Assembly: GCA_038400315.1 (NCBI GenBank)
Contig: CP151667.1
Location: 4,785,174 to 4,849,173, forward strand
DNA length: 64,000 nt
Origin: Isosphaeraceae bacterium EP7
GTDB lineage: Bacteria > Planctomycetota > Planctomycetia > Isosphaerales > Isosphaeraceae
Reading direction: 5' to 3'
Shown here: piece by piece, positions 25,661 to 44,307 of the stretch
How positions within the stretch are numbered: position 1 is the stretch's first letter
Layout of the letters: the number at the start of each line of letters is the position of its first letter
The notes under the pieces: generated by a model
The model's input: the letters and a program-made list of their open reading frames with translations, nothing else
The model's database searches: none
Told to the model about the DNA's origin: nothing
Program-made: the position numbers and the translations under genes

Positions 25661-25840
25661 ATGTCCGGACCGATCATCCGCAAGTACGGATTCCCCAACT
25701 TCGAAGAGATCTTCGGCAAGAGGGAGATGAAGCACGGCGTCGACCCCGCCGAGGCTTCCAAGCCCCAATCAACCAAGGATGAGCCTTCCAAGCCGGTGCC
25801 GACCGTGGGAGAAGACGCCGGCGTGAAGAAGCCGAATTGA
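25661..25840 (+). CDS. Small hypothetical protein, 59 residues
   Basis: An ATG at 25661 with a near-perfect AAGGAGG five bases upstream opens a 59-codon frame ending at 25840. The product has a conserved-looking N-terminal half (MSGPIIRKYGFPNFEEIFGK, then REMKHG) and a Pro/Lys/Ser/Asp-rich flexible tail. No membrane segment, signal or cysteine. It ends nine bases from the convergent sigma-like gene. I believe similar short proteins occur in other planctomycetes, but I cannot confirm this. Function unknown. Confidence 0.75.
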   Translation: MSGPIIRKYGFPNFEEIFGKREMKHGVDPAEASKPQSTKDEPSKPVPTVGEDAGVKKPN

Positions 25841-25849
25841 GGGCCCCGC

Positions 25850-26629: not shown

Positions 26630-26824
26630 CGCTCGCCACTCCCTGCGTGTGGAAATGCCCCGACTCCGCCGAGATGCGGCGAGAGTATCGGAACGCCCGA
26701 CTTCCATCGAGTCCAATTCTCTAGACTACGATATCATGCACGCAATTGTTCGGCAAGCACGGATGTTGCCTCGAGGTGTGCTGACTCCTTGAATGTAGTT
26801 CATCTCCTATGTGCTTGAGAACAC

Positions 26825-27922
26825 TTATTGCAACATTCCTCGCCCGGCGATCGGCCAGGATGCCTCGACCCGGCCCCGTCGATGGGCCAAAACACGGTCG
26901 TGGAGCACGAAAGTCAGGTCGCTATAACCGGGAATTAATTCCAAGAATTCTCCGATTCGTGGGTCGGCTCCTTCCGGCAAATCGACGGTCGCGTGCTCGG
27001 CCGAGAGCCCGACCACCCGATAATCGGGGTGTCCCTTCACGGTGGGCGGGGTCCGGTGCTCGCTCATCGACTTCAGTCCGGCGTCGAGGATGGCCCGGCC
27101 AGGCCGAGGCCGACTGACCACCGTCGTCAGGACGGTCAGGGCAGGGGAGTGCTCGACGACCTGGCAGACCTTCGAATAGTAATTGCAATAGAAGATGCCG
27201 CCCCCTGCCTGCAATTCGGTGGTCCCGGGCAGATCGGCGGTGACCTGGTACGAGCCGGTCCCGCCGGCGGAGACGATCCGGGTGGGCAAGCCTGCCGCGT
27301 TGACGGCCTCCCTGGCAAGATTCAAGCGGCCGATCGCCGCTACGATCGCCGCTTGCTTCTCAACGACGTCGGGCATGGGGACGGTATGGCCCTCGTATCC
27401 CATCACTCCATCGAACCGAAGGCCTGGTGCGTCGGCAACTTGCCTTGCAAGCTTTACGGCGGCCTCAGGCGACGTGACCCCCGTCCTTCCCATCCCCAGG
27501 TCCACATCGACGAGCAGGCCGACCGTTGTGCCGGCCTCGATCGCCGCCCGGGAGATCGGCCCGACTTGGTCGATGTGGTCGACCGTCGCCTTCACGTCGG
27601 CAATCCGCTGGAGCGCCGCCAGGCGGCGGACCTTGCTCTGGCCGACGACGAGGTGGGCGATGAGGATGTCATCGATTCCTCCCTGGGCCATGACCTCGGC
27701 CTCGGAGATCTTGGCCACCGTCACGCCGATCGCCCCGAAGCATTTCAGCCTGTGGGCAATCACCGGCGACTTGAACGCCTTGGAGTGCGGCCGCCACTGG
27801 ATCCCACGCTCCGCGAGGTGCCCGGCCATCTTCGCCGCGTTGTGTTCGAAAGCGTCGAGGTCGAGGAGGAGGGCAGGGGAGTCGAGCTGATCCAGGGTGA
27901 GGCCGACTGGGCTGAGCAGCAT
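26825..27922 (-). CDS. D-threonine aldolase-like PLP enzyme (alanine racemase-type fold)
   Basis: 365 residues, fold-type III PLP enzyme. The PLP lysine lies in WRPHSKAFKSPVIAH near residue 48, and the barrel continues with the segment VDVDLGMGRTG and the phosphate-contact glycines of VSAGGTGSY. The C-terminal domain contains a His/Asp metal-site-like stretch (VVGLSAEHATVDLPEG) and VLHDRVLAHRRGRV, as in D-threonine aldolase and D-serine dehydratase proteins. Such enzymes cleave or dehydrate D-3-hydroxyamino acids. Substrate cannot be decided. It is a single gene, separated from its neighbours by about 100-200 bases. Confidence 0.87.
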   Translation of the reverse strand: MLLSPVGLTLDQLDSPALLLDLDAFEHNAAKMAGHLAERGIQWRPHSKAFKSPVIAHRLKCFGAIGVTVAKISEAEVMAQGGIDDILIAHLVVGQSKVRRLAALQRIADVKATVDHIDQVGPISRAAIEAGTTVGLLVDVDLGMGRTGVTSPEAAVKLARQVADAPGLRFDGVMGYEGHTVPMPDVVEKQAAIVAAIGRLNLAREAVNAAGLPTRIVSAGGTGSYQVTADLPGTTELQAGGGIFYCNYYSKVCQVVEHSPALTVLTTVVSRPRPGRAILDAGLKSMSEHRTPPTVKGHPDYRVVGLSAEHATVDLPEGADPRIGEFLELIPGYSDLTFVLHDRVLAHRRGRVEASWPIAGRGMLQ

Positions 27923-28025
27923 CGTTCGAAGCTCTCCGGAATCGAGGCATGCGGAAGGTGAGATGCACCAGTGAGTGATCGCTGGGCGTCGTTTAAAAAC
28001 GGTTATTCACTCAGGAATCCGAGGA

Positions 28026-29279
28026 TCAGACCTGCGAAGGCATCTCGAACCGGCGGCCGTACTCGCGAGAGAGCAGGGCGTTGGCTTCGTTGTCTTTCCC
28101 GAACGACTCGGTCGCGGCGTCCCAGGTCAACTTCCGGCCCAGTCGATGGGCAATGTTGCCCATGTGGCAGAGCCGAGTGCTGGCGTGACCAATCTCGACG
28201 TCGGCGGCGGGTGCCTGGCGCGATCGGACGCAATCGAGGAAGTTCTTCACGTGGGCCGCCTGACCCTCGGTCTGCTTGCCACCCGCTTCGGGCCCGTCTT
28301 CGACGTGCCAGCCCTTCGAGTCGACGATCAAGGTCCCGGCGTCTCCGTAGAACGCGATGCCGAAGCCCGAGCCCTCCTCGCCGTGCTTCGACCACATCCG
28401 GTGCTCCCAGACGATGCACGTCCCGGGATAGTCCCAGGTCACGATCTGGGTGTCGGGAACCTCTTGGTCGTCGTCGAAGACATACTTCCCGCCGCCGGAA
28501 GTCACCGTCGTCGGGGTGTCGACTCCCAGGCCCCAGCGCGCGACGTCGACTCCGTGGATCCCGTTGTTGCCGATCTCACCGGTCCCCCAATTCCAGAACC
28601 AGTGCCAGTTGTAGTGGAACCGGTTTGCCATGAATGGGCGGTCGAGCGCCGGGCCCTGCCAGAGGTCGTAATTGACCCCCTCGGGCACCGGACCGGGGGC
28701 CCCTTTGCCGATCGGCTTGCGTTGCTGGTGGATCCATGCCCGGGCCATCCCGACCTTGCCCAAGGCTCCCGACTTCACGTAGGCGACGGCGTCGTGGATG
28801 TGCGGCATGCTCCGCCGTTGGGTTCCGACCTGGACGATCCGGCCATATTTTCGGGAGGCCTCGATCATCCGCCGTCCCTCGACGACGTTGTGGCTGGCGG
28901 GCTTCTCGACGTAGACGTCCTTGCCAGCCTGACAGCCCATCACCGTCATCAGGGCATGCCAGTGGTCGGGAGTGGCCACGGCGATCGCGTCGATCGACTT
29001 GTCTTCGAGGATCTTGCGGAAATCGGCCTCGGTCCGGGGAGCGGGGATTCCGGCGGCCTCGGCCGTCTTCAGGGGCTTGGCGAATGTCGACGGATCGATA
29101 TCGCAGATCGCCACGAGTTCCGCGCCAGGTTGCCTGGCAAACTCGTTGACGAGGTCGACGCCACGGCTGTGCACCCCGATGACGGCCACCCGAACCCGAT
29201 CATTGGGCCCGGCCCCGCGCGTCAACCTCGACCCCGCGACCGCGGCGGCCGTGCTCATGACAAAGACTCGGCGATTCAT
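28026..29279 (-). CDS. Exported Gfo/Idh/MocA-family oxidoreductase
   Basis: 417 residues. The N-terminus MNRRVFVMSTAAAVAGS has an arginine pair and a short hydrophobic run, a twin-arginine-type signal as seen in many planctomycete members, which would fit export of a folded NAD(P)-bound enzyme. The Rossmann fold begins VRVAVIGVHSRGVDLV, and the family signature VYVEKPASHNVVEGRRM carries the catalytic EKP lysine. The second domain has the WNWGTGEIGNNGIHGVDVAR stretch typical of the planctomycete/Bacteroidetes subgroup. Substrate, probably a sugar or cyclitol, is not predictable. Confidence 0.9.
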   Translation of the reverse strand: MNRRVFVMSTAAAVAGSRLTRGAGPNDRVRVAVIGVHSRGVDLVNEFARQPGAELVAICDIDPSTFAKPLKTAEAAGIPAPRTEADFRKILEDKSIDAIAVATPDHWHALMTVMGCQAGKDVYVEKPASHNVVEGRRMIEASRKYGRIVQVGTQRRSMPHIHDAVAYVKSGALGKVGMARAWIHQQRKPIGKGAPGPVPEGVNYDLWQGPALDRPFMANRFHYNWHWFWNWGTGEIGNNGIHGVDVARWGLGVDTPTTVTSGGGKYVFDDDQEVPDTQIVTWDYPGTCIVWEHRMWSKHGEEGSGFGIAFYGDAGTLIVDSKGWHVEDGPEAGGKQTEGQAAHVKNFLDCVRSRQAPAADVEIGHASTRLCHMGNIAHRLGRKLTWDAATESFGKDNEANALLSREYGRRFEMPSQV

Positions 29280-29373
29280 CGGCGATCCCCCGGGACGAAG
29301 TCGTGGCGTTGAGGTCCCATTCCGCCAAGGCTATCGGGCCGGCCGGCTCGGGGATAGCGCCCGCCGGATCGCT

Positions 29374-29835
29374 TCAGCGATGGTCGCGCGCCAGGGCAAT
29401 GATCGCATGCAAGAAAACGGCCGCCCCCAATAATAAAAACCAGACCCTGAGCTGAAAACCCGGCGAAGGCCTGCGCCAGCGTCGGCGCACCCCCTCCCGT
29501 CGCCGTAAGGCCACCATCTCGCATTCATGCCGGGGCCAGTTTCGATACATTCCTGTCCGGCCGCAGTCGCGACAGTGGAATTGCAGCAGGAGATAGGGGA
29601 TCGGGAGTGCCAGGAACGAGAGGACGACCGCGACGGTCGGATGGCCGTGAGTCAGCCGGAACAAGATTTTCCAGGTGGCAAGAACGCAGAACACCGCCAG
29701 GAATGGATTAACGACCAGCCTCTGAAAATGCTCGATGCGATCGTCCAGCAACTCACCCCGGCGCCCTGCGGGCGCGGCCAGGTCGAAATCGAGGTCGGCC
29801 TGTGGAGGCGGCCTGCTCCGTGATCCGGCCTGCAC
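29374..29835 (-). CDS. Small membrane protein with a CxxC pair
   Basis: 153 residues with three hydrophobic segments (NPFLAVFCVLATWKILF, VAVVLSFLALPIPYLLLQF and FLLLGAAVFLHAIIALA). Between the second and third lies HCRDCGRTGMYRNWPRHEC, a cysteine/histidine cluster that could bind zinc or serve as a redox pair. The cytoplasmic loop is strongly basic. Family not recognised. It starts 26 bases after rph, in the same direction, so it may be the last gene of the arg-rph transcript. Confidence 0.6.
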   Translation of the reverse strand: MQAGSRSRPPPQADLDFDLAAPAGRRGELLDDRIEHFQRLVVNPFLAVFCVLATWKILFRLTHGHPTVAVVLSFLALPIPYLLLQFHCRDCGRTGMYRNWPRHECEMVALRRREGVRRRWRRPSPGFQLRVWFLLLGAAVFLHAIIALARDHR

Positions 29836-29861
29836 GCGAGCCTCCCCGAAGTCCTCGTCAA

Positions 29862-30578
29862 TCAGACCTGGAACGGCCAGCGGTCGCCCAACGCATCGCG
29901 TTGGAGCCCCTTCAACTCGGCGATCCCTGCTGATGCCAGGTCGAGCATCTCGTCGAGTTGCCCCCTGGAGAACGTCCCGCCTTCGCCGGTCCCCTGGACC
30001 TCGACGAGGCCGCCGGAACCGAGTTGGACGACATTACAGTCCACGTCGGCACGTGAGTCTTCCACGTAGTCCAGGTCGAGGACGGCCGTTCCCTTGACGA
30101 TGCCCACGCTCACCGCGGCGATGCTGTCTCGCAAGATCGAGGCGGCGGCCATCGGGAAACGCGAGCCCACGGCGTCGGCCACGGCCACGAATGCAGCGGT
30201 GATCGCCGCCGTCCTGGTCCCGCCATCGGCCTCGATCACGTCGGCGTCGACATGGATGGTCCAGGGGCCCAGGGCCTTCGTGTCCACGATGGCCCTCAGG
30301 CTCCGGCCGATCAGACGCTGGATTTCGGTGGCCCGTCCGTCGGGCCCGCGCGATTTCCGGGACGGCGTGCTGCCGGGCAGCATCGCGTATTCGGCCGTCA
30401 GCCAGCCGACCCCTTTCCCTTCGAGAAACGGGGGGACCTTATCGGAGATCGAGGCCGTGACCAGCACGGTCGTCGCGCCCGAACTGTACAGGACGCTCCC
30501 GGCCGCCTGCCTGGCAAACCCTCGGCGCATCGTCACGGGGCGTAACTTGTCGGGCAGGCGGCCGTCGTGGCGAGTCAT
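29862..30578 (-). CDS. rph: Ribonuclease PH
   Basis: 238 residues, the usual length. Phosphorolytic 3'-5' exoribonuclease that trims tRNA 3' ends. The N-terminus MTRHDGRLPDKLRPVTM, the segment GWLTAEYAMLPGSTPSR and the catalytic/phosphate region VIEADGGTRTAAITAAFVA are all intact, as is VDCNVVQLGSGGLVEVQGTG. The ATG at 30578 is chosen over a GTG four codons upstream. It follows argF by 41 bases on the same strand. Confidence 0.97.
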   Translation of the reverse strand: MTRHDGRLPDKLRPVTMRRGFARQAAGSVLYSSGATTVLVTASISDKVPPFLEGKGVGWLTAEYAMLPGSTPSRKSRGPDGRATEIQRLIGRSLRAIVDTKALGPWTIHVDADVIEADGGTRTAAITAAFVAVADAVGSRFPMAAASILRDSIAAVSVGIVKGTAVLDLDYVEDSRADVDCNVVQLGSGGLVEVQGTGEGGTFSRGQLDEMLDLASAGIAELKGLQRDALGDRWPFQV

Positions 30579-30619
30579 TCGTCGGTTCACTCGGTGGGAG
30601 GGATCGTTGCGGACCGGGT

Positions 30620-31591
30620 TCAGACCGTCGTACGGGCGCGAGCTTGGGCGGGCTGCCCTTGGCCATCATTGGTCTTGTCCTGCATCAACCAGACGAGCAG
30701 AGCCTTCTGGAAGTGCAGCCGGTTCGCCGCCTGGGGGATGATCAGGCTGCGCGGGCCGTCGATCACATCGGCGGTGACTTCTTCCTCACGATGCGCGGGC
30801 AGACAGTGCAGGAAGATCGCGTCGGGGCTTGCCAGCCTGAACATCGCCGCGTTGACCTGATAAGCGCGGAATGCCTCGAGCCGCTTGGCACTCTCGGCCT
30901 CCTGTCCCATGCTCGTCCAGATATCGGTGTATACGACGTGCGCGTCGCGGACCGCCTTCGACGGGTCGTGCTCCACATTCAGCGGTACGCCCGGAAATGT
31001 CCTGGTGTACTGATCGCGGAACTCGGCCGGGAAGTCGTAGTCCGGCGGACAGGTCAGCACGAACTCCAGGCCCAGCAGCGCACAGGCCAGGGCCAAGGAT
31101 CTCGCCACATTATTGCCGTCGCCCACGAAGACCAGTCGGATTCCGTCGAGCTCGCCCAGGGCCTCGTGGATCGTCAAGATGTCGGCCATCGCCTGACAGG
31201 GGTGGGCGCTGTCGCTCAGGGCGTTGATGACCGGGACCGTGGCGTACCTGGCCAGTTCCTCGACGTTCGATTGCGCGAACGTCCGGACGGTCAGGACGTC
31301 GACGTACTGGCTAATCACCCGGGCGAAGTCGGCGATGGTTTCGCGCTTGCCCAGGCCAACTTCCTCGCCCCTGAGGAATATTGAGCTTCCTCCGAGCTGC
31401 GCCATTGCGGCCTCGAAGCTCACCCTCGTGCGCAAAGAGGGTTTCTCGAAGAGCAGGCCGAGCATCTGACCGGGCAGGTAGAGCCGGCGATTCCCCTCCT
31501 GCTCCTCGCGTTTGATCACGATCGCGAGCTGGAGCAGCTCCCGGGCCGCCTGGGGCGTCAGGTCGAACAGGTCGACGAAGTGGCGTATCAT
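30620..31591 (-). CDS. argF: Ornithine carbamoyltransferase
   Basis: 323 residues from the ATG at 31591. Makes citrulline from ornithine and carbamoyl phosphate in arginine synthesis. The carbamoyl-phosphate site reads EKPSLRTRVSFE (the S-L-R-T-R variant of STRTR), followed by HPCQAMAD. The ornithine site has SMGQEAE, and FLHCLPAHR holds the catalytic cysteine. It follows argD by 28 bases, so it belongs to an argB-argD-argF transcript continued by rph. Confident call. Confidence 0.97.
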   Translation of the reverse strand: MIRHFVDLFDLTPQAARELLQLAIVIKREEQEGNRRLYLPGQMLGLLFEKPSLRTRVSFEAAMAQLGGSSIFLRGEEVGLGKRETIADFARVISQYVDVLTVRTFAQSNVEELARYATVPVINALSDSAHPCQAMADILTIHEALGELDGIRLVFVGDGNNVARSLALACALLGLEFVLTCPPDYDFPAEFRDQYTRTFPGVPLNVEHDPSKAVRDAHVVYTDIWTSMGQEAESAKRLEAFRAYQVNAAMFRLASPDAIFLHCLPAHREEEVTADVIDGPRSLIIPQAANRLHFQKALLVWLMQDKTNDGQGQPAQARARTTV

Positions 31592-31619
31592 CTCTCGAAT
31601 TCCCTTGTACGCCGCCCGA

Positions 31620-32825
31620 TCAGAGGGCGCGAAGCACCTCGGCGAGGATCCCGCATCCTTCATCGACCTGCTCGTCGGTGAGCGTCAGGGCCGGCAGCAG
31701 GCGGACCACGGTGCCGTGGGTCGCGTTGATCAGTAAGTTCCGTTCCAAACAGGCCGCGACGACAGGCGACGCGTCCTTGGAGAGTTCAACGCCGATCATC
31801 ACCCCGCGGGCACGGATGTCGAGGATCAGGTCGGGCCGCTCGTCGCGGACCTTGCGGAAGTGTCCCTCGAAACGAGCGGCCAGTTCGCCGGCGCGTCGCA
31901 AGAGGCCGTCTTCCTCGATCGTCTCGATCGTGGCCAGGCCCGCACGGCAGGCGATGGGATTGCCGCCGAACGTGCTCGCGTGCGTCCCGGGGACCAGGCT
32001 CCTGGCCACCTCGGGACGGGCCATCATTACCCCGGCCGCAACCCCACCGGCCAGCGCCTTGGCGCAGGTCAGGACATCGGGAATAAGGCCAGCCTCATGC
32101 TGATAGGCGAACCAATTGCCTGTCCGGCCCAAACCCGTCTGCACCTCGTCGAGCATGAGCAGGGCGCCCCGCTCATCGCAAAGTCTTCGGAGGGCGGTCA
32201 GATACCCGGGCGGCGGGACATTGACTCCCCCTTCGCCCTGGATCGGCTCGATCAGCACGGCCGCGGTCGAGTCGTCGATCGCGGCGGCGGCGGCCTCGAC
32301 ATCGCCGTATGGCACATACTCGAAGCCGGGAACCAGCGGTTCGAAGCCCGCATGGTACTTGGGTTGGGCCGTGGCCGTCAGGGCGGCATAAGTCCGGCCG
32401 TGGAACCCGCCCGTCATGGTCACGATCTTTGACTTGCCGGCGGGATGCCCATGGACCCGCGCCAGCTTGATCGCCGCCTCGTTGGCCTCCGCCCCGCTGT
32501 TGCAGAAGAACGCCTGGCCGCCGAACGATCGTTCCGAGAGCGCCTGCGCGAAGGCCCCCTGCGACTCGATGTACCAGGTATTCGGCACGTGGATGAGCTG
32601 GCCGACCTGCTCGCGTACGGCCTCGACCAGCCTTGGCGGGCAATGGCCCAGCAGGTTGCAGCCCCAACCGGGGAAGAAGTCGAGGTACCGCGTACCCTCG
32701 GCGTCCCAGATCCAGGACCCCTCCCCGCGCACGAGTGCGACGGGATAGCGGCGATAGTTGCCGATCACGTAGCGATCGAACTGGGCGATAATCTCGGCCG
32801 AGCCGGGCTGGGCGACCTGGGCCAT
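31620..32825 (-). CDS. argD: Acetylornithine aminotransferase
   Basis: 401 residues, PLP-dependent class III aminotransferase acting on N-acetylglutamate semialdehyde. The PLP lysine is in VLTCAKALAGGVAAGVM, the cofactor Asp in LLMLDEVQTGLGRTG, and the family N-terminal segment YLDFFPGWGCNLLGHCPP is present. N-terminal residues MAQVAQPGSAEIIAQFDRYV match ArgD more than other class III enzymes. The gene is between argB (110 bases upstream) and argF (28 bases downstream), all on the minus strand. Confidence 0.95.
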   Translation of the reverse strand: MAQVAQPGSAEIIAQFDRYVIGNYRRYPVALVRGEGSWIWDAEGTRYLDFFPGWGCNLLGHCPPRLVEAVREQVGQLIHVPNTWYIESQGAFAQALSERSFGGQAFFCNSGAEANEAAIKLARVHGHPAGKSKIVTMTGGFHGRTYAALTATAQPKYHAGFEPLVPGFEYVPYGDVEAAAAAIDDSTAAVLIEPIQGEGGVNVPPPGYLTALRRLCDERGALLMLDEVQTGLGRTGNWFAYQHEAGLIPDVLTCAKALAGGVAAGVMMARPEVARSLVPGTHASTFGGNPIACRAGLATIETIEEDGLLRRAGELAARFEGHFRKVRDERPDLILDIRARGVMIGVELSKDASPVVAACLERNLLINATHGTVVRLLPALTLTDEQVDEGCGILAEVLRAL

Positions 32826-32935
32826 GGCGGCGGAATCTCCGACGTTGTCGAGCGAAAAGATCCGAATTGAAGGATGGACCCGTCGACCTGCGAGCGACGC
32901 AGGGGCGACGGGCTGCGTCAGATCGGGGCGATCTC

Positions 32936-33871
32936 TCAGGGCATCTTGGCCGGGACCGGCCTACGCTGGCGTTCGGCCTGCGTCGCGGCCGTCTCGTTCC
33001 TGGGGACGATCATCGTGCCGACGCCGGTGTCGGTGTACATCTCGACGAGCAGCGAGTGCCGCATCCGGCCGTCGATGATGTGCACCTTGCCCACGCCCGC
33101 CTCCAGGCTCTCCAGGCAGGCCTCGACCTTGGGGATCATCCCCTTGTCGATCACGCCCGATGCGATCAAGGCGCGACAGCCCTCTGGGTCGAGACTCTCG
33201 ATCAGGCTCTTGGGTTCGTGCCTGTCGCGCAAAATTCCGGGGGTGTCGGTCAGGAAGACCAACTTCTCGGCATGAAGCGCCTGCGCCACGGCCGCGGCGG
33301 CGGTGTCCGCATTCACGTTCAAGAGGTTCCCGTCGTCGTCCTCGGCCAGGCTGGGCAGCAGTGGGACAACCCCCGCCAGGCAGAGGTCCTCGATCGGCTG
33401 GGCGTCGACCTCCGTCACCTCGCCTACCCGCCCCAGGTCAACCTCGCGGCCGTCCAGCTTCGTCAACCTGCGGCCGAAGAGGCACTGATGAGTCTTGTGA
33501 TGCATCCCTCGGGCGCGGCCGCCGAACTTGTTGATGTGCCGCTCGATGTCGAGGTTGATCTCCTCGGCGAGCACACGAGCCACGATCTTCAGGGTCGCCT
33601 CATCGGTGTACCGGCGACCCTGGACGAACGTGGGCTCTAGCCCGGCGGCTGCCATCGCTGCCGTGATCGCCTTGCCCCCGCCGTGCACCAGCACGGGCCG
33701 CATCCCCACGCTCTGCATGAACACCACGTCGACCAGCAGCGCACGGAGCGCCTCGGGAGACTCCATCACCGAGCCCCCCAGCTTGATGACGGTGAACTTG
33801 CCGTGGAACTGGCGGATGTAGCCTAGGGCTTCGATCAGGACATCCGCCTTGCGGATCGCTTCCTCATACAA
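32936..33871 (-). CDS. argB: Acetylglutamate kinase (TTG start)
   Basis: 311 residues. Catalyses the second step of arginine synthesis, phosphorylating N-acetylglutamate. The ATP/phosphate loops FTVIKLGGSVMES and RPVLVHGGGKAITAAMA, and the site with NVNADTAAAAVAQ, are all intact. The only start giving the full N-terminal helix is a TTG at 33871 with GAGGG eight bases upstream. The long N-terminal helix (EEAIRKADVLIEALGYIRQF) is the type seen in arginine-inhibited ArgB, so feedback control is likely. First gene of the argB-argD-argF-rph run. Confidence 0.95.
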   Translation of the reverse strand: MYEEAIRKADVLIEALGYIRQFHGKFTVIKLGGSVMESPEALRALLVDVVFMQSVGMRPVLVHGGGKAITAAMAAAGLEPTFVQGRRYTDEATLKIVARVLAEEINLDIERHINKFGGRARGMHHKTHQCLFGRRLTKLDGREVDLGRVGEVTEVDAQPIEDLCLAGVVPLLPSLAEDDDGNLLNVNADTAAAAVAQALHAEKLVFLTDTPGILRDRHEPKSLIESLDPEGCRALIASGVIDKGMIPKVEACLESLEAGVGKVHIIDGRMRHSLLVEMYTDTGVGTMIVPRNETAATQAERQRRPVPAKMP

Positions 33872-34147
33872 CGTCGGAACCCTCGTCTACGACCGACCCA
33901 ATCCCGAAATCAGCAAGTCGCCGATTGTCCCGCCCATCCCGCGTCCTGTAAAGCCCCCATCGGTTGGCCTGATCAGAGACAAGCCTCTCCTCTTCGTTTA
34001 CAAAAGGTGTCGCTCACGCCGATGGCTCGGCCTTTTCGCACAGATTAAGATGCTGTGCATACTTAGGCTTGCTACGCCACGGTCCCATTGTCCGGTGCTG
34101 GCGCCGATACGGTCACCCACTCCCAGACTCTCATCCTAAGGGACGAA

Positions 34148-36876
34148 ATGCCCATCGCCCGCCGCCCTGTGACGTCCGAAGCCCGCCGCTCGCGTCTTAG
34201 TCCCCGTTTTCGAAGACCTCGAATCCCGCGCGTTAATGGCCGCATCACCGTCTACTGTCGGCTCTCAGATCGCCAAACGGCTGGCCGACACGGCCTACGT
34301 CGAGAAACTCATCGGCGCCAGGGCCTTGGCCACCGCCGACGGGACCGCCCTTCGAAATCGAACGGTCGCCGATCTCAGTCGCGGCGCCTCGCGCCAGGGC
34401 GTCGTCCTGCGCATCCTCCGCAGCCCGGCCGCCGCCAACGAGGAGGTCAGTCACGTTTACCTGAATGTCCTCGGCCGATCCCCCTCCGCCGCCGAGCTCA
34501 AGGTCGGTCGGCAGGTCCTTACGCTCGGGGGCGACTCGCGCACGCTCATCATCCGGGCCGCGTCTGGTGCCGAGTTCCTCGCCCGCAATGGCGGGGACCA
34601 GAGCAAGGCCATCGGGGCGCTCTACCCGCTCATCTTAAGCCGAAATGGCTCGGATGCCGAGATTGCCTCTCATGCCGCATAGTCCGCGGCCAGAAGTGGC
34701 AACCTTCGCGCCGTGGCCCGGGCCATCGCGTTCAGCCCCGAGTCAAACACCCGCACCGCGTCCGTGATCCTGGCCAAATTCGGCGCCGCCACGCCGCAGA
34801 CCCTCAGGTCGGCCGCGCTGGCCCTCCTCAGCCCGGGGGGCGTCACCCGGGTTGAGGCCAATGCGCTTGCGACGGACTCGGCGTACGCCATGCTGACGAT
34901 CCCCGCCGAGACGGCCACTCCGCGTCTTGCCGCCGGCAACGGGCAGGTCAAGACCCGTGCAGCAATCGAGAGCGCCCGATCCGGCGTGCCGCTCGCCCCC
35001 GGCTTCAATCTCCGCAGTTCGTTCACCAACTTGCCGGTCCTCATCGATCCGTTCGCCAACTCGTTCCTCACATTGAATCTCACCTCGATGGGGCAGGACG
35101 GATCGGTCTGGGCTAGCGACGGCTATTCCATCTTCGTGCTCCCGCCCGCCGCAACGGCCTGGACGGAGGTCCTGACGGTCTTCGGAGGTTTCTCGGATCT
35201 CGCGGCGACCTCCTCGAGCACTGCCTGGGCCATCACCAGCGGGTTCGTCTCCCATGTTGTTGGGGGCTCCTGGTCGATCGCACCGTTACTCCCCGGCGGG
35301 GACACGCCGTCGGCGATCGCGGCTGGTGTCGACACATTTGTCAACGTCCTCGGGGCCTCGGGCCAGATCTATCAACTCGATAACGCGGGACAGTCGTGGA
35401 ACACCCTCCCCACGCCAGGGGCCGGCCTCACCACGATCAAGGCGTCCGGGACCGATGTCCTCATCGGGATCGGGGCGGGCAATGGGGCCGCCGATCGGTC
35501 GCTCTGGACGTTTGCGAACGGGGCCTGGTCTCAGATCTCCGGAGGGCCCGCGCTGACCGATGCCGCGGTTGGCGCCGACGGAGCAATCTGGGCCTGGGGT
35601 CAGAATTCGACGACGATCAACGTCATGCTCCCGGACGGCACCTGGACCGTCCCCCCCACGACGAACCTGCTCTCGACGTCGCTGAATCAGACGATCGGTT
35701 ATGTGATGGCCACCTCGGCCAACCTCGCGGTTGTCGTCCCCACCCAGGGACTCTACCCGTTCCCGCAGACCGTTCAGTTTGCTTACGGGTTGCTCGACAG
35801 GCCGGCGACCACGTATCCGGCCTTCACGAACAACGATCAGGTGACGGCCTATAACGCGATCGGCACCACGCTGGGCATCACCGTCTCGGGCGGGATCCGC
35901 GGCCAATATCCAAATCTCGCCTTCGACCCGGATCTGGCGGCCCTGACGGTCACGCAGATGACCGCGCCGCTGGGCGTTTCCCAGTCCGACTGGCACATCG
36001 TCCAGACACAGGTCCTCAAAGAACTCTCCTACATCGGCCCCATCCAGAAGCTCTATCAGAACTTCGGAGACCTCAACTCCAGCCTCAACTCACTCAGCAA
36101 CACGGTCTTCCTCACCAGCATCGACCTGGTGCTGGGTTCGACCACTTCGCCCCAATCCAACAACACCGCCACGCTCGTCGTCGAGGCCCTGGGCGAGGCC
36201 ATCCTCGGGGCCATCGGAGGGGCAGGCGTCGGCCCCGCTTACTCGATCGCTGCCTCCCTCCTCTCCACGACCCTTGTGGCGGCCATCTCCGCCCTCCAGG
36301 GGACCAACCCTCCCGATGCCAACGGCGCCGTGTACATCGTGGCCGCCGACCTCGGCCAGACCGTCGCCAATCTTTTCGTCAACACCTCCAACCAACAGGG
36401 CAACGACGAGATCGCGGTCCTCTCCAACTGGTCCTATCTGTCGGCGGTCGGCCAGCAACTGACGTCCGGCCAGTGGGCCTGGCCCGCGAATCAGTCCGCC
36501 GTCATGCTCAACGCAGCCAGTCCCGCTCTGGAGCTCTACTTCCTCCAGGCCCTCATTCCCGCCAAATATCAAATCATCGGATTCGAGTACGGAGATTACG
36601 TCAAGCAGCCACTGAGCCAGAATCTCAACGTCCCGTCCTACGACATTGAGACCGTCTATGGCGGGATGCAACCACGGCCGCCCCTGGGAGTACGTCTACT
36701 TCATGAACGCCCAGGGCGCCTCACACAACCCGTTCGACGGGGAAGACCTGAGCCCGTTCCCAACCTCGAAGACGTTCGAGACCCTCTTCAATGACCTTGG
36801 CGTGAATCCGGACGATCTCTGGGCTGGAAATGGCGGCTGGGCCGAGATCCCCTACCTCTTCGTCAAGCCCGCCTGA
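34148..36876 (+). pseudogene. Broken gene for a motif-bearing exported protein with DUF4214-like and beta-propeller-like parts
   Basis: An ATG at 34148 with AAGGGA upstream begins MPIARRPVTSEARRSRLSPRF, then leaves frame at a four-T run (34207-34210). Removing one T restores RFEDLESRALMAAS, the planctomycete N-terminal motif. The next frame continues with DUF4214-like repeats (VYLNVLGRSPSAAELKVG, ILSRNGSDAEIASHAA), stops at a TAG (34680-34682), then continues in the same frame through more of the repeat (NLRAVARAIAFSPES) and a beta-propeller-like region with repeating WA/W-containing strands. A second frameshift near 36660-36670 leads into CNHGRPWEYVYFMNAQG and a C-terminus ending at 36876. 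Three lesions indicate a decayed gene; reading errors cannot be ruled out for any one of them. Confidence 0.8.
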
Positions 36877-36971
36877 ATGAGACCGCGGGCGGATCCCTGA
36901 TCGCCTCAGATCCGATTGTGGACGTCCACCACGATCGGGATCATCGTTGCCCGGCCGATCCTGTAAAATGT

Positions 36972-37001
36972 GATGAGCCCGGTCGATTGACCGGGCTCAT
37001 C
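36972..37001. terminator. Perfect 13-bp hairpin after the broken gene
   Basis: Arms GATGAGCCCGGTC and GACCGGGCTCATC with a four-base loop, about 95 bases beyond the end of the broken reading frame and 29 bases before the next start. No T run after it on the plus strand; a short T-rich stretch follows on the minus strand. Confidence 0.55.
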
Positions 37002-37029
37002 GATTCGTGCAGGGCAGGGGGCAGGGTGC

Positions 37030-38637
37030 ATGGCTTCGACATTCTGGTTGATCGCGGCCCTCGCAACGTCGCTCGCGGAAATCCCGCCGCAAGACATCCT
37101 CCCCCCGCCCGAGGCCGTCGATGCCGCTGCCGGCGCGCTCCGCCAGGAACGCCGGGCGATCCACGACCGTGAGACATCGCGACTGCTGACCGTCGCCGGC
37201 CGCCTCGAGAACGAGGGTAAGAGCGACGAGGCCCAGGCCGTACGCGGCCTGATTCGGCCCCTGGGGAAGGGGAGCGATGCCACCCGTTTCGTCCCCTGTG
37301 TCGACATCGTCCCGGCGGGTTCAGCGACCAGACCCAACCCCGGAGGCGAGGAGATCGCGGCCGTCCTGAGTGAAGCCGCCGATGCGCTCTTCGCTCTGGC
37401 CGGTAAGTCCGCAGCGGGCGTGGAGCCGAACCTGGCACTGGCCGACGCCTGCCTTCGGGATGTCCTCGAGCGCAGGCCCGACCATGCCGAGGCACGCAGA
37501 TTGATGGGCTATATCGCCTACAATGGCGGTTGGGCGACACCTTATGCCGTTGCACGCCTGAAAGAAGGGATGGTGCCGCACGCCACGTTCGGCTGGGTGC
37601 TGGGCGATTGGGTCCCGCACCTTGAACGAGGCGAACTGCCCGCCTTGCCCGTGAAGAATCAGGCGACCCGGTGGCTTCCCGCCTCGCAGGCCGATGCACA
37701 GCGGCAGGAATGGTCCTCGGCCTGGAAGATCAACACCGAGCATTTTCAGATCCAGACCAATGCGCCGCTGGCCGACGCCATCGCGTTCGGTCGCAAGCTC
37801 GAAGCTCTCGACGACCTCTTCTTCGCCCTCATGGCCGACGTGATTGGTCCCGAACTGCCGCTGGCTAAACGGTTCCGCTCGAAGGGTTTCGCGACGGCAG
37901 GCCCTGGCCGGACCCATCTCGTCTACTATTACGCCAACCAGAACGAGTACATCGACGCTCTCTTACCCCGCCAGGGAGAGTCGATCCGCGAGAGCCTGGG
38001 GATTTACATGCCGAGGGAACCGAAACGGAAAATCCCCGGGGCGAGCTATTTCTATCGAGACCCCAAGGCGCAGATTGACACCACTGCCACCCTCTTCCAC
38101 GAGGCCTCGCACCAGCTCCTCTTCGAGACCGCGGGCAAGTCGGATTACTCGGACAAGGCGAACTATTGGGTCATCGAAGGGATGGGCTGCTATTTCGAGA
38201 CCCTTAAATTCCAGTCCGACGGCACGCTCAGGATTGGCGGAATGGTCGGCCCACGCCTCGCCATCGCACGCAAGAGGGCGATTGATCATGGCGAGTTCAT
38301 GCCTACCGAACGCCTCGTTGCCCTCGGCCGCAACGCCTTTAACGGCATTAACGGAGGAGATGTCTACCTCAATTATGCCCAGGCAATGGCCCTGACCACG
38401 TTCTTGATGCAGCGCGAGGGGGCCCACGGCCGTGACGCCTTCCTCGATTATGTCCGCGATGTGTACAAGGGGCGCACCAGGGCCAAGATTGGCCGGAGCC
38501 TTCAAGATCGCCTCCAGGTGTCATACGAGACCCTGGACGCCGAACTCCTTGACTACCTGAAGGGTGAGGAGACCGCCGCGCCGATCCTAGACGGTGCGCG
38601 CGACGAGTCCGGCGACCCCGCCCGTAGGGGTCGCTAG
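37030..38637 (+). CDS. Secreted protein with a DUF1570/peptidase-MA-like HExxH domain
   Basis: 535 residues. A short N-terminal hydrophobic run (ASTFWLIAALATSLA) may be a signal sequence. Residues about 150-200 contain a TPR-like stretch (CLRDVLERRPDHAEARRLMG, then YIAYNGGWATP). The C-terminal part has TATLFHEASHQLLFE, an HExxH zinc-peptidase-type motif, followed by WVIEGMGCYFE, in which a Glu could be the third ligand, as in gluzincin-type families. DUF1570 proteins of this kind are abundant in planctomycetes; peptidase activity is inferred and not shown. Start at 37030 follows a G-rich stretch. Confidence 0.82.
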   Translation: MASTFWLIAALATSLAEIPPQDILPPPEAVDAAAGALRQERRAIHDRETSRLLTVAGRLENEGKSDEAQAVRGLIRPLGKGSDATRFVPCVDIVPAGSATRPNPGGEEIAAVLSEAADALFALAGKSAAGVEPNLALADACLRDVLERRPDHAEARRLMGYIAYNGGWATPYAVARLKEGMVPHATFGWVLGDWVPHLERGELPALPVKNQATRWLPASQADAQRQEWSSAWKINTEHFQIQTNAPLADAIAFGRKLEALDDLFFALMADVIGPELPLAKRFRSKGFATAGPGRTHLVYYYANQNEYIDALLPRQGESIRESLGIYMPREPKRKIPGASYFYRDPKAQIDTTATLFHEASHQLLFETAGKSDYSDKANYWVIEGMGCYFETLKFQSDGTLRIGGMVGPRLAIARKRAIDHGEFMPTERLVALGRNAFNGINGGDVYLNYAQAMALTTFLMQREGAHGRDAFLDYVRDVYKGRTRAKIGRSLQDRLQVSYETLDAELLDYLKGEETAAPILDGARDESGDPARRGR

Positions 38638-38752
38638 ACGCGTCTGCATCGATCGAACTTATCTCGGCCGATGCCGCTCAGGAATATGGAAGGCCCGGGG
38701 ATCAGGCGGGCTGGTTTCCTGTCCGTCGCGACGAACCTGGCCGGAAGTAAAT

Positions 38753-38770
38753 GCCGGGAGAAATCCCGGC
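38753..38770 (-). terminator. Short hairpin downstream of rpsR
   Basis: Arms GCCGGGA and TCCCGGC with a GAAA loop; on the minus strand it is followed by ATTTACTT. It lies 75 bases beyond the rpsR stop and is the likely end of that transcript. Confidence 0.55.
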
Positions 38771-38844
38771 CCTGGGCAAAGGGCGGCACTCAGGCCGCGT
38801 CAATCGCCGGCAATCGCGAGTCAATAAAACCCACCTTCGACGGC

Positions 38845-39087
38845 TTACTCGCCGACGTAGGGGATCAGGGCCAGGAAGCGGGCCCGCTTGACCGCGTCGC
38901 TGGAGGCTCGCTGGAACGCGGCGCAGTTGCCGCTTCGCTTGCGGGAGAACATCTTGCTCTGGTTGGTGCAGAGCTTCTTCAAGAGGCCGATGTCCTTGTA
39001 GTCGACATAGGCGGGGCGAGGGCAACCTTCGGGGGTGCAAAACCGGCAGCGGTTCTTGCGATTTCGGCCGAATTTCTTCCGCGGCAT
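38845..39087 (-). CDS. rpsR: Ribosomal protein bS18, zinc-binding form
   Basis: 80 residues from the ATG at 39087. A small-subunit ribosomal protein that pairs with bS6. The basic N-terminus MPRKKFGRNRKNRCRFC leads into the S18 core VDYKDIGLLKKLCTNQSKMF and the C-terminal KRARFLALIPYVGE. Cysteines at CRFC, EGCPRP, LCTNQ and GNCAAF give the zinc-type version. No rpsF, ssb or rplI is next to it, in contrast to the usual operon; it is a lone gene flanked by unrelated genes. Confidence 0.95.
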   Translation of the reverse strand: MPRKKFGRNRKNRCRFCTPEGCPRPAYVDYKDIGLLKKLCTNQSKMFSRKRSGNCAAFQRASSDAVKRARFLALIPYVGE

Positions 39088-39238
39088 GGAACCTGGTGTC
39101 CTGGATACGGTTGTGTCAAGCCTAGCGTCCGAATCGGGCGTCGGACGCATCCCGAGTCGCGCACAAGTGGGAATCGGACACTCTAGGCTCTCCCAGGATG
39201 CCGGTCAAGGTCAACCCTGACACATCGTCGCCCCTCGA

Positions 39239-40138
39239 TTAGCTCGGAGATGGGCGGGGAGGGGGGGCAGGACGGGATGCGGTGGTCGAACCGGTTAGTT
39301 CCTCACTGAGATCCCAGAGCCGTCGGGCCGCATCCACGTCGTTGGAGGCCTTCGACGACGGGACCGCCCGCTCATCGACGAAGTAGCGGCCGGTGACTCC
39401 CTCGACCTCGGGCGAGGATGCCAGGTACACCAACGTGCGTGCGCCTTCTTCGGGGCTGATGAATTTCGTACGCAGAAGGCGTTGATAGAAGAACGACAAC
39501 ACCTGCCAGGACAGGCCGTTATTGGTTCCAATGTTGGTCGCCACGAGGCCGGGGTGGAGTGCGTTCACGGTCACACTCGTCCCTTCGAGCCGACGCGCCA
39601 GCTCATAGGTAAAGAGCAGGTTTGCCAGCTTGGAGTGGTGGTAGGCAGGGAATCCGGCTCGGTATCCGCGTTCGAACTGGAGGTCGTCGAACCTGGCCCC
39701 TACGGACATCTCGTGACCGATCGACGAAACGTTCACGATACGCGCTGGTGCACCGGAGCAGATCCGGTCGAGCAACAGGGTTGTGAGTAGAAAGTAGGCA
39801 AGGTGATTCAAGGCGAAGGTCATTTCGATGCCGTCGGCGCTCAGACGCCGTGTCAGGAAGATGCCCCCGGCGTTGTTCACCAGCACGTCGAGGCGAGGAT
39901 ACTGTTCGAGGAACTGTCGAGCCAGCTCCCGGACGTCGGCTTGGCGGGATAGGTCGGCCACGAGGGATCCGACGGAAGGATTCCCGGTCCGCTGGCGAAT
40001 CCGAGCGGCCACTGCCTCGCACTTCGCCGGGTCTCGTCCCACGATGACGACCTTCGCCCCCTGTTGAGCCAGAGCTTCTGCAGTGACCGCGCCGATGCCT
40101 GAGGTCGCACCCGTGACCAAGCAGACTTTTCCCTGCAC
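39239..40138 (-). CDS. Short-chain dehydrogenase/reductase
   Basis: 299 residues from a GTG at 40138, which has GGGAGGG five bases upstream; the frame is open to 40297 but with non-homologous sequence. Classical/extended SDR: cofactor motif VTGATSGIGAVTAEA, NNAGG, catalytic Ser in VNVSSIG and YHHSKLANLLF with the Tyr/Lys pair. It resembles retinol dehydrogenase/WW-oxidoreductase-type SDRs (LHPGLVATNIGTN). The Pro/Ser-rich tail (PAPPPRPSPS) is extra. Gene lies 50 bases downstream of another SDR on the same strand, suggesting a two-gene unit. Substrate unknown. Confidence 0.9.
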   Translation of the reverse strand: MQGKVCLVTGATSGIGAVTAEALAQQGAKVVIVGRDPAKCEAVAARIRQRTGNPSVGSLVADLSRQADVRELARQFLEQYPRLDVLVNNAGGIFLTRRLSADGIEMTFALNHLAYFLLTTLLLDRICSGAPARIVNVSSIGHEMSVGARFDDLQFERGYRAGFPAYHHSKLANLLFTYELARRLEGTSVTVNALHPGLVATNIGTNNGLSWQVLSFFYQRLLRTKFISPEEGARTLVYLASSPEVEGVTGRYFVDERAVPSSKASNDVDAARRLWDLSEELTGSTTASRPAPPPRPSPS

Positions 40139-40188
40139 GGTAGCCCTCCCGTGGATCGGAGTTCGTGTGGGTGGGCGATCGGGACTCG

Positions 40189-40971
40189 CTATTCGGCGTC
40201 GTCGATCACCTTCTTGTTCATCGCCTTCGAGATGATGTGGTCGTAGACGGTGCAGGGGAGCAGTCGGAGGAGTCCCATGGCCCAGCTTGCCTGCCAAGGG
40301 AACCGCACTTCGGCACGCCCCTCGGCGATCCCCTTGAGGATTGCCCGCGCGGCGGGCTCGACCTCCACCATGAACCGTGGGGAGCGGATCGACGCGGTCA
40401 TCGGGGTGCGGACGAATCCTGGCCGGACGGTCGTCACCGAGACCCCGAATGGTTTCAGTTCCACGCGGAGGCCTTCCAGGAGTGCGGCCACAGCCGCCTT
40501 CGAGGCGATGTACCCCGAGACGAGCGGGGACCCCCGATAGGACGACAGGCTGCTGATCCCTGCAATTCGTCCTCGACCGCGTTCGAGCATCCCCGGGAGC
40601 GTGGCCTCGATTGCGTAGACGATCCCGAGGTAATTCACACGCATGAGCGTCTCGAAACCGCCGGCTTCGAAGGGGGTCGCCGGTGTCCCGAGTCCGATCC
40701 CGGCGTTGGCGATCAGAAGATCGATCGGCCCCAACTCCGCTTCAACTCGCGCGATGGCGTGCCGAACAGAGTCACGGTCCGAGACGTCGGCCTCGACCGC
40801 CGTCGCCACCCCTCCGCGTCCTCGGATGGATTCCATCGTGGCGTAGAGTGCATTCTCCGGCAAGGCGACCAGGCCGACACGGGCCCCGGCTGCCGCCAAC
40901 TGGCCGGCAAGCTCGGCACCGATCCCGCTGGATGCGCCCGTGATCACAGCGACCCGGTCCTTGAATGACAT
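40189..40971 (-). CDS. Short-chain dehydrogenase/reductase
   Basis: 260 residues from the ATG at 40971. Cofactor-binding ITGASSGIGAELAGQ, IANAGIG in place of NNAG, ISSLSSYRG with the catalytic Ser and YIASKAAVAALLEGLR with the Tyr/Lys pair. The C-terminal half (FPWQASWAMGLLRLLPCTVY) looks membrane-associating, as in DltE/YqjQ-type SDRs. Ribosome site is weak. Upstream of the second SDR by 50 bases. Substrate not predictable. Confidence 0.9.
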   Translation of the reverse strand: MSFKDRVAVITGASSGIGAELAGQLAAAGARVGLVALPENALYATMESIRGRGGVATAVEADVSDRDSVRHAIARVEAELGPIDLLIANAGIGLGTPATPFEAGGFETLMRVNYLGIVYAIEATLPGMLERGRGRIAGISSLSSYRGSPLVSGYIASKAAVAALLEGLRVELKPFGVSVTTVRPGFVRTPMTASIRSPRFMVEVEPAARAILKGIAEGRAEVRFPWQASWAMGLLRLLPCTVYDHIISKAMNKKVIDDAE

Positions 40972-41557
40972 TGAAATGCGACTCGATTTGAGGTCCGGCG
41001 TGGTGTGAAAGGGCTCTCTCCGTACTCGCTCGGTTGGCCCCAAGCCTGGATGAGGAGACCGGCGTCGCAAAGCCTCCGGCAGCGTGTCGAGGGTCGGGTC
41101 GTGGGCATCTGTTGAGATGGAGTCGGAGGCGAGGACCATGATCACCGCCGGCATCGGTCGGGTCAACAGATAAGGTGAAATGAGACGGGATGTACCCGAA
41201 AGCCGCCAATGGACATCGATAGTGAGCGACTGTGTGTCGACCATGCAATCTGCCACCTGCCACTCTGTCCGAGTCGCAGATCAATCCGATCGGAATAGCG
41301 ATGGCCGAGGCCGCTCGGCTGGTGCGGACCTGGCAGCGCCTGAACGGCACGGGAACGTGTTGCAAGAGTCGGGATTCTGCAACAATTCGACCGCAGCGGG
41401 TTATTGGCGGGGGCCGCCTGAGGAATTGTGACGATCGCGATACGCTCGGGACGGGGTTCGCCGGTCTCGCCATCGAAATGAACCCATAAGCTCCATTATC
41501 GGACGCAAAATCTGGCTGCAAAATTGGGGAGCATTCGATCGCATCGAATCGAACGCG
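40972..41557. other. Interval without a convincing gene
   Basis: 586 bases between an SDR and a small HTH gene, both on the minus strand. The short frames here have no ribosome sites and no family-like sequence. It probably carries the promoter of the SDR pair. Confidence 0.5.
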
Positions 41558-41932
41558 TCATCGGTCCTTCCCCATGACCTTGTTGAGCAGCTCGAGGATA
41601 CGACTTGATGCGGGCCCCGACCCCTCGACGAGCTCTTGAGCCTCGGCAAAGCTCAGCCTCGGGTCAGGGAATGGGAGTCGGCCTTGCGCGTGCTCAAGAG
41701 TCGCGTGAAGGCGGTAAGTCTTCTCCGAGAGCGAGACGCGGATCCCGCAGCGTTTGAGCAGTTGGAGCTCGCGATAGAAGGTTCTCAGGCCGATCCCGAG
41801 GTTCTGCATCAGGGCGTCCCTGGACTTGGGCGGGGATTCACCCATCAGTCCGAGGAGCCTGAAAAGCCGTGCGGCACGTGAAGGGGAAATTTGCGCGATT
41901 TGTCGACGTTTAGCGGCAGCTCGTTTCGGCAT
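41558..41932 (-). CDS. Small HTH-domain protein (DeoR/WYL-type N-terminus)
   Basis: 124 residues from the ATG at 41932 with a perfect AAGGAGG upstream. A basic N-terminus leads into a winged-helix pattern: RAARLFRLLGLMGESPPKSR, then ALMQNLGIGLRTFYRELQLL, then CGIRVSLSEKTYRL, matching the HTH part of DeoR/WYL regulators. There is no sugar-binding or WYL domain; the C-terminal 45 residues are a Pro-rich linker and a short helix (SSRILELLNKVMG). It is divergent from the motif-bearing exported protein by about 280 bases and could regulate it, which is an inference from position only. Confidence 0.78.
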   Translation of the reverse strand: MPKRAAAKRRQIAQISPSRAARLFRLLGLMGESPPKSRDALMQNLGIGLRTFYRELQLLKRCGIRVSLSEKTYRLHATLEHAQGRLPFPDPRLSFAEAQELVEGSGPASSRILELLNKVMGKDR

Positions 41933-42214
41933 GAATTCGGCCTCCTTGTCCAGTGGTGGGCTCTCCCCGCGAGCGTGTCAGTGGCGATGGTCCTGAGAAT
42001 TTCGACGGATGCATCAAGTCTGCCGGTTGTCCGGTCGATCTTTGCTATCAGGCCTGACCGACGCCGGTTTCACGATCGATGTTGGAGCCGAGCGTCGAGG
42101 CGAGGGCGGCCCTTGCCGGACGCCGCACCGTCGCGAGGAAACGCCGAGTCGAGGGGGAGTCTCCCCACGGCCGTCACTAACTCGCCGTCTTTCTGCGCAT
42201 TGGGAGCCCCGCTT

Positions 42215-43720
42215 ATGTCGACCCCGAAACAAGCCGCGAAAACGCGGTCCGTTCGCCCGGAAGCTGAGGCCCTGGAAGGACGTCGGCTCTTGTCCATGAC
42301 GGTCAGCGGGCAGGATGTCGACGGCGACACGTTCACCATCCGGCTCGTTGGGCCGGGCGATCTCCGCGTGGTCAAGCAGAACGATTCCACCGGCAATCCG
42401 GCGTCGCTCAGCTCGGCCAGCCTGATCAACGAGATCACGGTCGCCGGGACGAATCCCCAATCTTCCAGGCTCGTCGCCAGGGTGAACAAAGCGCCCACCG
42501 GGGACGGCAAGGTCTTTTTCGCCAACCTCACGCAGCTGAGTTCGCGTTCCCTGACCGCCGGGAATGGTAACGGCTTGCAGTCGGTTGATATGCCCAACTT
42601 CTACCTGGGAGACACCGACCCTGCGACCGCGAGCGTTCAGGGTACGCCCAAGGCCTCGATCAGGATCCCCGACGGTGTGAACACGTTCCGCTTCGGAGGT
42701 GCCGACACCACGGCCTTCTTCGGGACCACCAACAGCCAGCGTCTGAACCAGAACAACACCTCCGACCTTTTCGTCATCGCCCTGGGCGAGCCGGTCAGCG
42801 GAGGTGTTCGGGTCATCGCAAACAGCTTCGTCAGCGATGCCCAGGCCGCTGTAACCACCGGCACGACGCCCGGAAGCCCGACGCAGGACGGGATCCAGCT
42901 TGTCGTGCAGGGACGCCTGAATTACTTCCAGGCCAATACGATCCAGGGCAATTCGTCGCTCCCCTCCGGACGGTTTTCGAACTCCGGGGGGACCTTGGTT
43001 CAGAGCGTGCCCGACGTGGCCGGTCTGACCGGTCAGATTGGATTCGTGAAGATCGGCGGCGACGCGACCAACTTCTCCGTCCAGACGAATGACCGGATCA
43101 GCGATTTCTTCATCGGCGGTGAGACCAACAATATCTTCCTCCTCACGCCGGGCGGGTCGCGCAACCTGCAATTCGGCAAGGGGATGGATAATGTCAGTGT
43201 CCTCACCCATAACATCCAGACCGTCAGCGCAAATCGAGGCGCGACGAACTCGTCGATCTCGGCCAATCGCGAGGCGGGCCTTCTGAGATTCGGCGGCGAC
43301 GTCCAGGGCACGACCGTTGAGTCGGGCGTGAATCAGGATCTCCTCAGCGCCTTCAATAATCAGTCCGATCCGACGACGTCGAATGCCCAGTCGGGTGGCG
43401 GCATGACCGTCCAGATCGCCGGCAATGTCGTCGATTCGGTCTTCGCCGCCTCCGTCGAACCCTTCAACGGCGTCTTCGGCTCGGCCAATGACCTCAATCT
43501 GCCTCACGGCAATGTCGTCGCCAAGGTGGAGGGGACAATTAGCAACGCCAATGCGACCCCCGACTCGCCGAATCAGGCGTTCTACGCCAATGACGTGAAC
43601 GTGACCCGTGGACCGGTCATCCCACCCAACGTCGCAGAGACCCCCTTCACCCCGACGAGCACGGTGAAACTTCCCGGGATCGGGAAGCAGGTCAACGGTC
43701 AGCCAGTGATCCGGATTTGA
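42215..43720 (+). CDS. Exported protein with planctomycete N-terminal motif, beta-rich
   Basis: 501 residues from the ATG at 42215, preceded by GGGAG. The N-terminus MSTPKQAAKTRSVRPEAEAL, then EGRRLLSM, carries the R-P-x-x-E-x-LE-x-R-x-LLS motif that marks many planctomycete exported proteins. The rest is Asn/Gly/Thr-rich and beta-rich, with no cysteine, and has repeated strand patterns (RIPDGVNTFRFGGADTTAFF; QTNDRISDFFIGGETNNIFL; REAGLLRFGGDVQGTTVESG), suggesting a beta-solenoid or long beta-sandwich array. It ends with a clear terminator. Function unknown; a surface or envelope role is likely. An ORF open upstream to 41891 is not used. Confidence 0.82.
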   Translation: MSTPKQAAKTRSVRPEAEALEGRRLLSMTVSGQDVDGDTFTIRLVGPGDLRVVKQNDSTGNPASLSSASLINEITVAGTNPQSSRLVARVNKAPTGDGKVFFANLTQLSSRSLTAGNGNGLQSVDMPNFYLGDTDPATASVQGTPKASIRIPDGVNTFRFGGADTTAFFGTTNSQRLNQNNTSDLFVIALGEPVSGGVRVIANSFVSDAQAAVTTGTTPGSPTQDGIQLVVQGRLNYFQANTIQGNSSLPSGRFSNSGGTLVQSVPDVAGLTGQIGFVKIGGDATNFSVQTNDRISDFFIGGETNNIFLLTPGGSRNLQFGKGMDNVSVLTHNIQTVSANRGATNSSISANREAGLLRFGGDVQGTTVESGVNQDLLSAFNNQSDPTTSNAQSGGGMTVQIAGNVVDSVFAASVEPFNGVFGSANDLNLPHGNVVAKVEGTISNANATPDSPNQAFYANDVNVTRGPVIPPNVAETPFTPTSTVKLPGIGKQVNGQPVIRI

Positions 43721-43792
43721 ATTCTCAGGCATTGCTGTTCGCCCTCGAACACCCAGAGTACATGCCTGACGTCATGCACGCAATCTTTTTGG

Positions 43793-43818
43793 GACGGCCC
43801 GCCACTTGGCGGGCCGTC
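43793..43818 (+). terminator. Terminator after the exported beta-rich protein gene
   Basis: Arms GACGGCCCGCC and GGCGGGCCGTC with an ACTT loop, followed by TTCGTTGGTTT. It lies 73 bases past the stop at 43720. Confidence 0.75.
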
Positions 43819-44126
43819 TTCGTTGGTTTGCGCAAAAGCCCATTCCGAATACGGTTGCCGCAAGCATGTTGAGTAGCTCCCCGGCATTACGGGATCACTT
43901 ACTGCGTTTTAGACCGCGACAGGACTTGTTTTCCGCGTCGCCCAGAGTGGACTTGGAACGCCCAAATTCTCGTTTGAATGCGATCATCGACCCGTGCATG
44001 AGCGTGTGTTCGCCTGCAAGTGGCAACATGCGAGCGATCTCGATAAGCATCGCTCTCCTGAGAGGGACGCCTCTACTCTCAGCGGCGTGGACCGTGTTCA
44101 GGCCGGTCGTACAGCCGACGCTCCAA
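43819..44126. other. Interval without a gene
   Basis: 308 bases between two terminators pointing towards each other. The two short frames here begin inside the terminator stems, so neither is accepted. Nothing else seen. Confidence 0.55.
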
Positions 44127-44127
44127 T

Positions 44128-44167
44128 AAAAAAACCACAAGTCTGCCTTTCGACATAACTTGTGGTT
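44128..44167 (-). terminator. Terminator of the AsmA-like gene
   Basis: On the minus strand AACCACAAGT pairs with ACTTGTGGTT around a 15-base loop and is followed by a T run (A run 44128-44132 on the plus strand). It is 140 bases past the stop at 44308. Confidence 0.8.
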
Positions 44168-44307
44168 GAATTTTCAGATCAAGGATTGGCTTGGGGTGTC
44201 GTTTGGATGATCGATGAAGAAGGAGGGTCGGGTCAAATCAAGAGGTCAGCTATAGAGGGCCGTGCGGCCGTGTACTGCCAGAGAACCGACAGGATTCGGG
44301 GAGATGA

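Follow-up and report, generated by a model that had tools for sequence, protein, structure and literature searches.

The broken gene and its surroundings

The window that we analyzed, a stretch of 64,000 nucleotides from Isosphaeraceae bacterium EP7 (genome of 7.2 Mb in five contigs, 99.89% complete), carries on the plus strand at positions 34148-36876 a surface-type gene whose reading frame is interrupted by two frame changes and one in-frame TAG (Table 1). Its two nearest neighbours are whole as judged by their Pfam matches, in agreement with an earlier note on this DNA that had described all neighbouring genes as intact; the other genes were checked with the frame-aware gene model only, which made a single further call in the rest of the window, at position 916, where it reflects an overlap of about two bases. 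A scan of positions 33850-37050 for promoters and terminators found no terminator, and its two promoter-like sites are on the minus strand. The window also contains an open gene of 609 amino acids (positions 41891-43720) with the motif EALEGRRLLS, for which no Pfam match was found up to E=0.1.

Table 1. Features at the locus of the broken gene and its nearest neighbours (window positions)
Feature	Position	Strand	Remarks
Neighbour, amino acid kinase (argB-like), intact	32936-33871	-	AA_kinase 1-234 of 234
Start codon and basic N-terminal stretch	34148-34211	+	Frame differs from that of the motif; basic stretch of the relatives is in frame
Lesion 1, frame change, likely at or near the T run	34205-34211	+	Strict range: ATG to 34212
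Fragment 1: N-terminal motif, first DUF4214 repeat, beginning of the second	34212-34679	+	
DUF4214 (PF13946) match	34446-34577	+	25.4 bits, cut-off 23.2
Lesion 2, in-frame TAG within the second DUF4214 repeat	34680-34682	+	
Fragment 2: end of DUF4214, tectonin-like propeller (roughly in the middle), helical region	34683-36656	+	
Lesion 3, second frame change	36656-36671	+	tblastn, gene model, coding model
C-terminal fragment in a new frame, ending NGGWAEIPYLFVKPA	36670-36876	+	Stop codon included
Neighbour with DUF1570, intact	37030-38637	+	DUF1570 2-120 of 129

The ATG at 34148 lies in a frame other than that of the N-terminal motif EDLESRALMAAS, and no ATG, GTG or TTG was found in the frame of the motif between its last stop codon and the motif itself. 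Reading from this ATG continues for about 235 codons of mostly unrelated sequence up to a stop at 34855. The evidence for lesion 1 consists of the basic stretch, the motif and the lack of a start codon in the frame of the latter; the coding model separates the two frames only weakly in this region (-2.0 vs -4.7). The frameshift that the earlier note had placed at the T run is present as a frame change, while its assignment to that run is likely rather than strict.

The two other lesions were delineated with the help of an intact orthologue from Aquisphaera insulae JC669 (G033; NZ_JAALJH010000001.1), a member of the Isosphaeraceae. When we used this protein as a tblastn query against the window, it matched a single frame from 34173 to 36710, running past the TAG, and in a second piece the next frame from 36664 to 36873, with 61% identity over 70 amino acids. 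The TAG shares its frame with the open coding frames on either side; in the alignment it corresponds to about residue 184 of the A. insulae protein, within the DUF4214 stretch of the latter (residues 143-205). A search of the EP7 genome with a profile built from six relatives also recovered the broken locus, with '1 TAG' inside the match, which ends at profile position 830 of 895. Ahead of lesion 3 the coding model clearly favours the first frame (13.2 vs -16.8), and behind it the other frame (5.3 vs -7.9, then 8.2 vs -16.1); the frame-aware gene model places the change at 36671. Across the gene the frames run from 2 to 0 to 1, an identical net step at both frame changes.

These data bear out the proposal of a surface-type gene with three lesions, including the TAG within a DUF4214-like repeat and the second frameshift ahead of the C-terminus: the comparison with a relative that had been suggested there revealed an A. 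insulae frame of 919 amino acids that is unbroken at all three places. The expectation that three T residues and no TAG would give one intact gene needs amendment, since such a correction would repair lesions 1 and 2 only and lesion 3 still breaks the gene.

Intact relatives and their domain composition

Searches for relatives gave matches in 6 of 59 and in 7 of 45 genomes, the EP7 genome being counted both times and being the only one of its genus in either set. Seven intact relatives emerged: the paralogue in the EP7 genome and one each in A. insulae and the genomes G008, G025, G005, G028 and G063; an eighth match, at a second place in G028, is short and was set aside. All seven are single open frames without internal stops, and each has an N-terminal motif of the same kind whose frame includes an upstream start. 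The whole arrangement of parts is found in five of them. Those of G028 (684 amino acids) and G063 (a frame of 774 amino acids, absent from the six-relative profile) are shorter and were without a Pfam match up to E=0.1, so that no counterpart of the TAG site was recognised in them. When up to two candidates per genome were scored in a sample of the phylum, 7 of 392 genomes matched the profile at 1e-10, and the matches outside the EP7 genome were partial.

The A. insulae orthologue has the same order of parts as the broken gene and is 45% identical to it over 867 aligned positions, but it forms one unbroken frame of 919 amino acids from a likely ATG where the EP7 gene has three lesions. We found no neighbours in common between the two loci. 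More generally, a comparison of the open frames of at least 150 amino acids in window positions 25001-45000 with the surroundings of the seven relatives (13 to 20 kb each) disclosed no shared gene order around the broken gene at E 1e-8, the only matches being those of the gene itself and of shadow frames.

In the relatives, a planctomycete-type motif at the N-terminus is joined to DUF4214, a tectonin-like propeller and a conserved C-terminus. DUF4214 (PF13946), a domain of unknown function that makes up a small part of the protein of the broken gene, scores above its cut-off in fragment 1 and, in a Pfam scan that covered the relatives other than that of G025, also in the paralogue (35.7 bits for the stretch equivalent to A. 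insulae residues 143-205) and in the G008 and G005 relatives; the A. insulae stretch remains below it with 20.1 bits. With the profile of the six relatives, the solved structure of Tectonin 2 (5fsb) was matched at E=2.2e-14; far weaker matches were to two two-component sensor kinases and, for the DUF4214 part, to phycobilisome linkers. By profile, the relatives resemble Tectonin beta-propellers (PF19193), but their Pfam scores of 22.7 and 26.7 bits (the paralogue and the G005 relative, respectively) lie below the cut-off of 30, and a search with the piece from the window up to E=1 did not return Tectonin. The tectonin-like beta-propeller may bind glycans. Structure prediction from four alignment rows reached a mean pLDDT of 46.7, and the two relatives that we compared with NCBIfam had no match there.

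At the N-terminus, the broken gene and its relatives carry, after a basic stretch, a motif of the LExRxLL kind known from Planc_extracel (PF07595), which we take to be typical of planctomycete extracellular proteins and which probably directs the proteins of the relatives to the cell surface. Two relatives score 17.9 and 15.2 bits against PF07595, below its cut-off of 25.5, and the piece from the window has no match. None of the 150 of 198 candidates scored in the EP7 genome exceeded this cut-off. Two were sub-threshold matches, neither of which is the broken gene, its paralogue or the gene at 41891-43720. At the opposite end, all seven intact relatives have in common a C-terminal signature of GP[FY]P and, after it, NGW, which lies outside every Pfam match found.

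Origin and age of the damage

The frame of the EP7 gene is broken where those of its homologues are unbroken, the property by which pseudogenes are recognized. Since both the orthologue and the paralogue are uninterrupted at the sites of the lesions, three lesions fall within one gene, the codon signal is normal and substitutions are not in significant excess, we regard 34148-36876 as most likely a recently inactivated gene, a pseudogene of the ordinary kind. This makes recent decay, here of a large exported protein, the best supported of the three readings given in the earlier note. The closest intact relatives encode proteins of about 900 amino acids. In EP7, translation from the ATG would leave the frame before the motif and stop at 34855, so that the mature protein should not form; the TAG and the second frame change would pose two further blocks to its expression.

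Fragment 2 possesses an internal GTG start, a frame of 693 amino acids and normal-looking codons, as might be expected if the pieces were separate functional genes or if one protein were made from them by recoding, through frameshifting and stop readthrough. We consider this very improbable: the seven intact relatives are single frames, fragment 2 by itself would be devoid of the N-terminal motif and the conserved C-terminus, and recoding would require three events. Phase variation through slippage at the T run has, in our estimation, a negligible probability. A frame change does lie at or near a short T run ahead of the motif, but this run consists of four T, and the plus strand of the window has 50 runs of at least four. 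A slip there would leave the two other lesions in place and the gene off, and the region of the motif in the relatives is free of frame changes. A phase-variable gene is marked by a long simple repeat whose length alone sets the frame, which this run of four T, with two further lesions behind it, does not provide.

The third-position G+C content of the three pieces (0.80, 0.84 and 0.85) is close to that of 40 coding-like frames (0.82), a yardstick taken from the 81 long open frames of the window and itself chosen by a coding-like G+C pattern. This normal codon-position signal suggests that the damage is recent. In Tajima-type relative rate tests with five outgroups (G025, a near copy of G008, being omitted), substitutions unique to the broken gene and to A. 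insulae numbered 79:72, 88:66, 69:62, 73:58 and 57:44; the broken gene is slightly higher in all five, none of them significantly (p 0.08-0.57). Such a non-significant excess is expected if the inactivation is recent and fits an artefact as well. The broken gene retains 36 of the 46 columns that do not vary among the relatives and have residues in at least six; four of the other 10 are gaps. When A. insulae is set aside, 54 columns are invariant in the remaining six relatives; the broken gene and A. insulae each keep 35 of these, and at 77 columns invariant in four of the six they keep 48 and 44, respectively. Judged from G+C content and rates, the inactivation would be recent when set against the divergence from A. 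insulae, unless the damage is an artefact.

An artefact would mean three faulty sites in the consensus of a gene that the organism itself possesses intact. Long-read consensus sequences commonly suffer from small indels, and both the equal net step of the two frame changes and the lack of a significant excess of substitutions accord with such a local error. A stop codon, on the other hand, is atypical of indel error. A collapsed repeat was rejected, because the sole other copy in the genome is the paralogue, with about 30% identity. We further applied the frame-change detector to 464 kb, made up of the window and of twenty segments of 20 kb taken at even spacing along the main contig, the only one of the five contigs sampled. 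It made seven calls, one of them in the broken gene; of the six others, three are overlaps of one or two bases between an old stop and a new start and one is a transposase. This leaves two unexplained calls, one of them ahead of an SCO1/SenC domain. The background is a lower bound, since the detector registered a single one of the broken gene's two frame changes, misses short shifts and is blind to stops. So few unexplained frame changes argue against general sequencing error, and together with the lack of a collapsed repeat they render the assembly problem raised in the earlier note less likely than decay; we view it as unlikely, though of some weight. Same-frame pairs separated by one stop proved uninformative as a gauge of how rare such a TAG is, as ordinary neighbouring genes look alike.

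Some of the loci encountered along the way deserve mention in their own right. The transposase (L024:13805-15046) encodes its HTH domains and a DDE_3 domain in two different frames; two-frame transposases are common. A second candidate broken gene lies at L034:18796-20000 (G000:C1 about 6018796-6020000), where a frame change near 19292 separates a coding frame of 183 amino acids from one with an SCO1/SenC domain that lacks a nearby start codon. At L019:8245-11518, a frame change near 9005, which may be an overlap or a break, lies between open frames of 853 and 308 amino acids, neither with a Pfam match.

Implications for the Isosphaeraceae

A comparative genomics study of four Isosphaeraceae (PMC5352709) already notes pseudogenes in this family, among them the chromosomal Sinac_1451 and the plasmid-borne Sinac_7679 of Singulisphaera acidiphila; a broken gene is not unusual here. 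One might imagine that the loss was selected, the several hits in a single surface gene reflecting pressure in this lineage, exerted for instance by phages or predators, to shed a glycan-binding protein of the cell surface; we consider this improbable. Literature searches that paired either DUF4214 or tectonin with Planctomycetes found nothing. For annotation, inactivation implies that 34148-36876 should stand as one broken gene and not as separate short proteins. Its intact relatives represent a little-described family that joins DUF4214 to a tectonin-like propeller, found whole here in Isosphaeraceae only, and they are a better subject of study than the broken gene.
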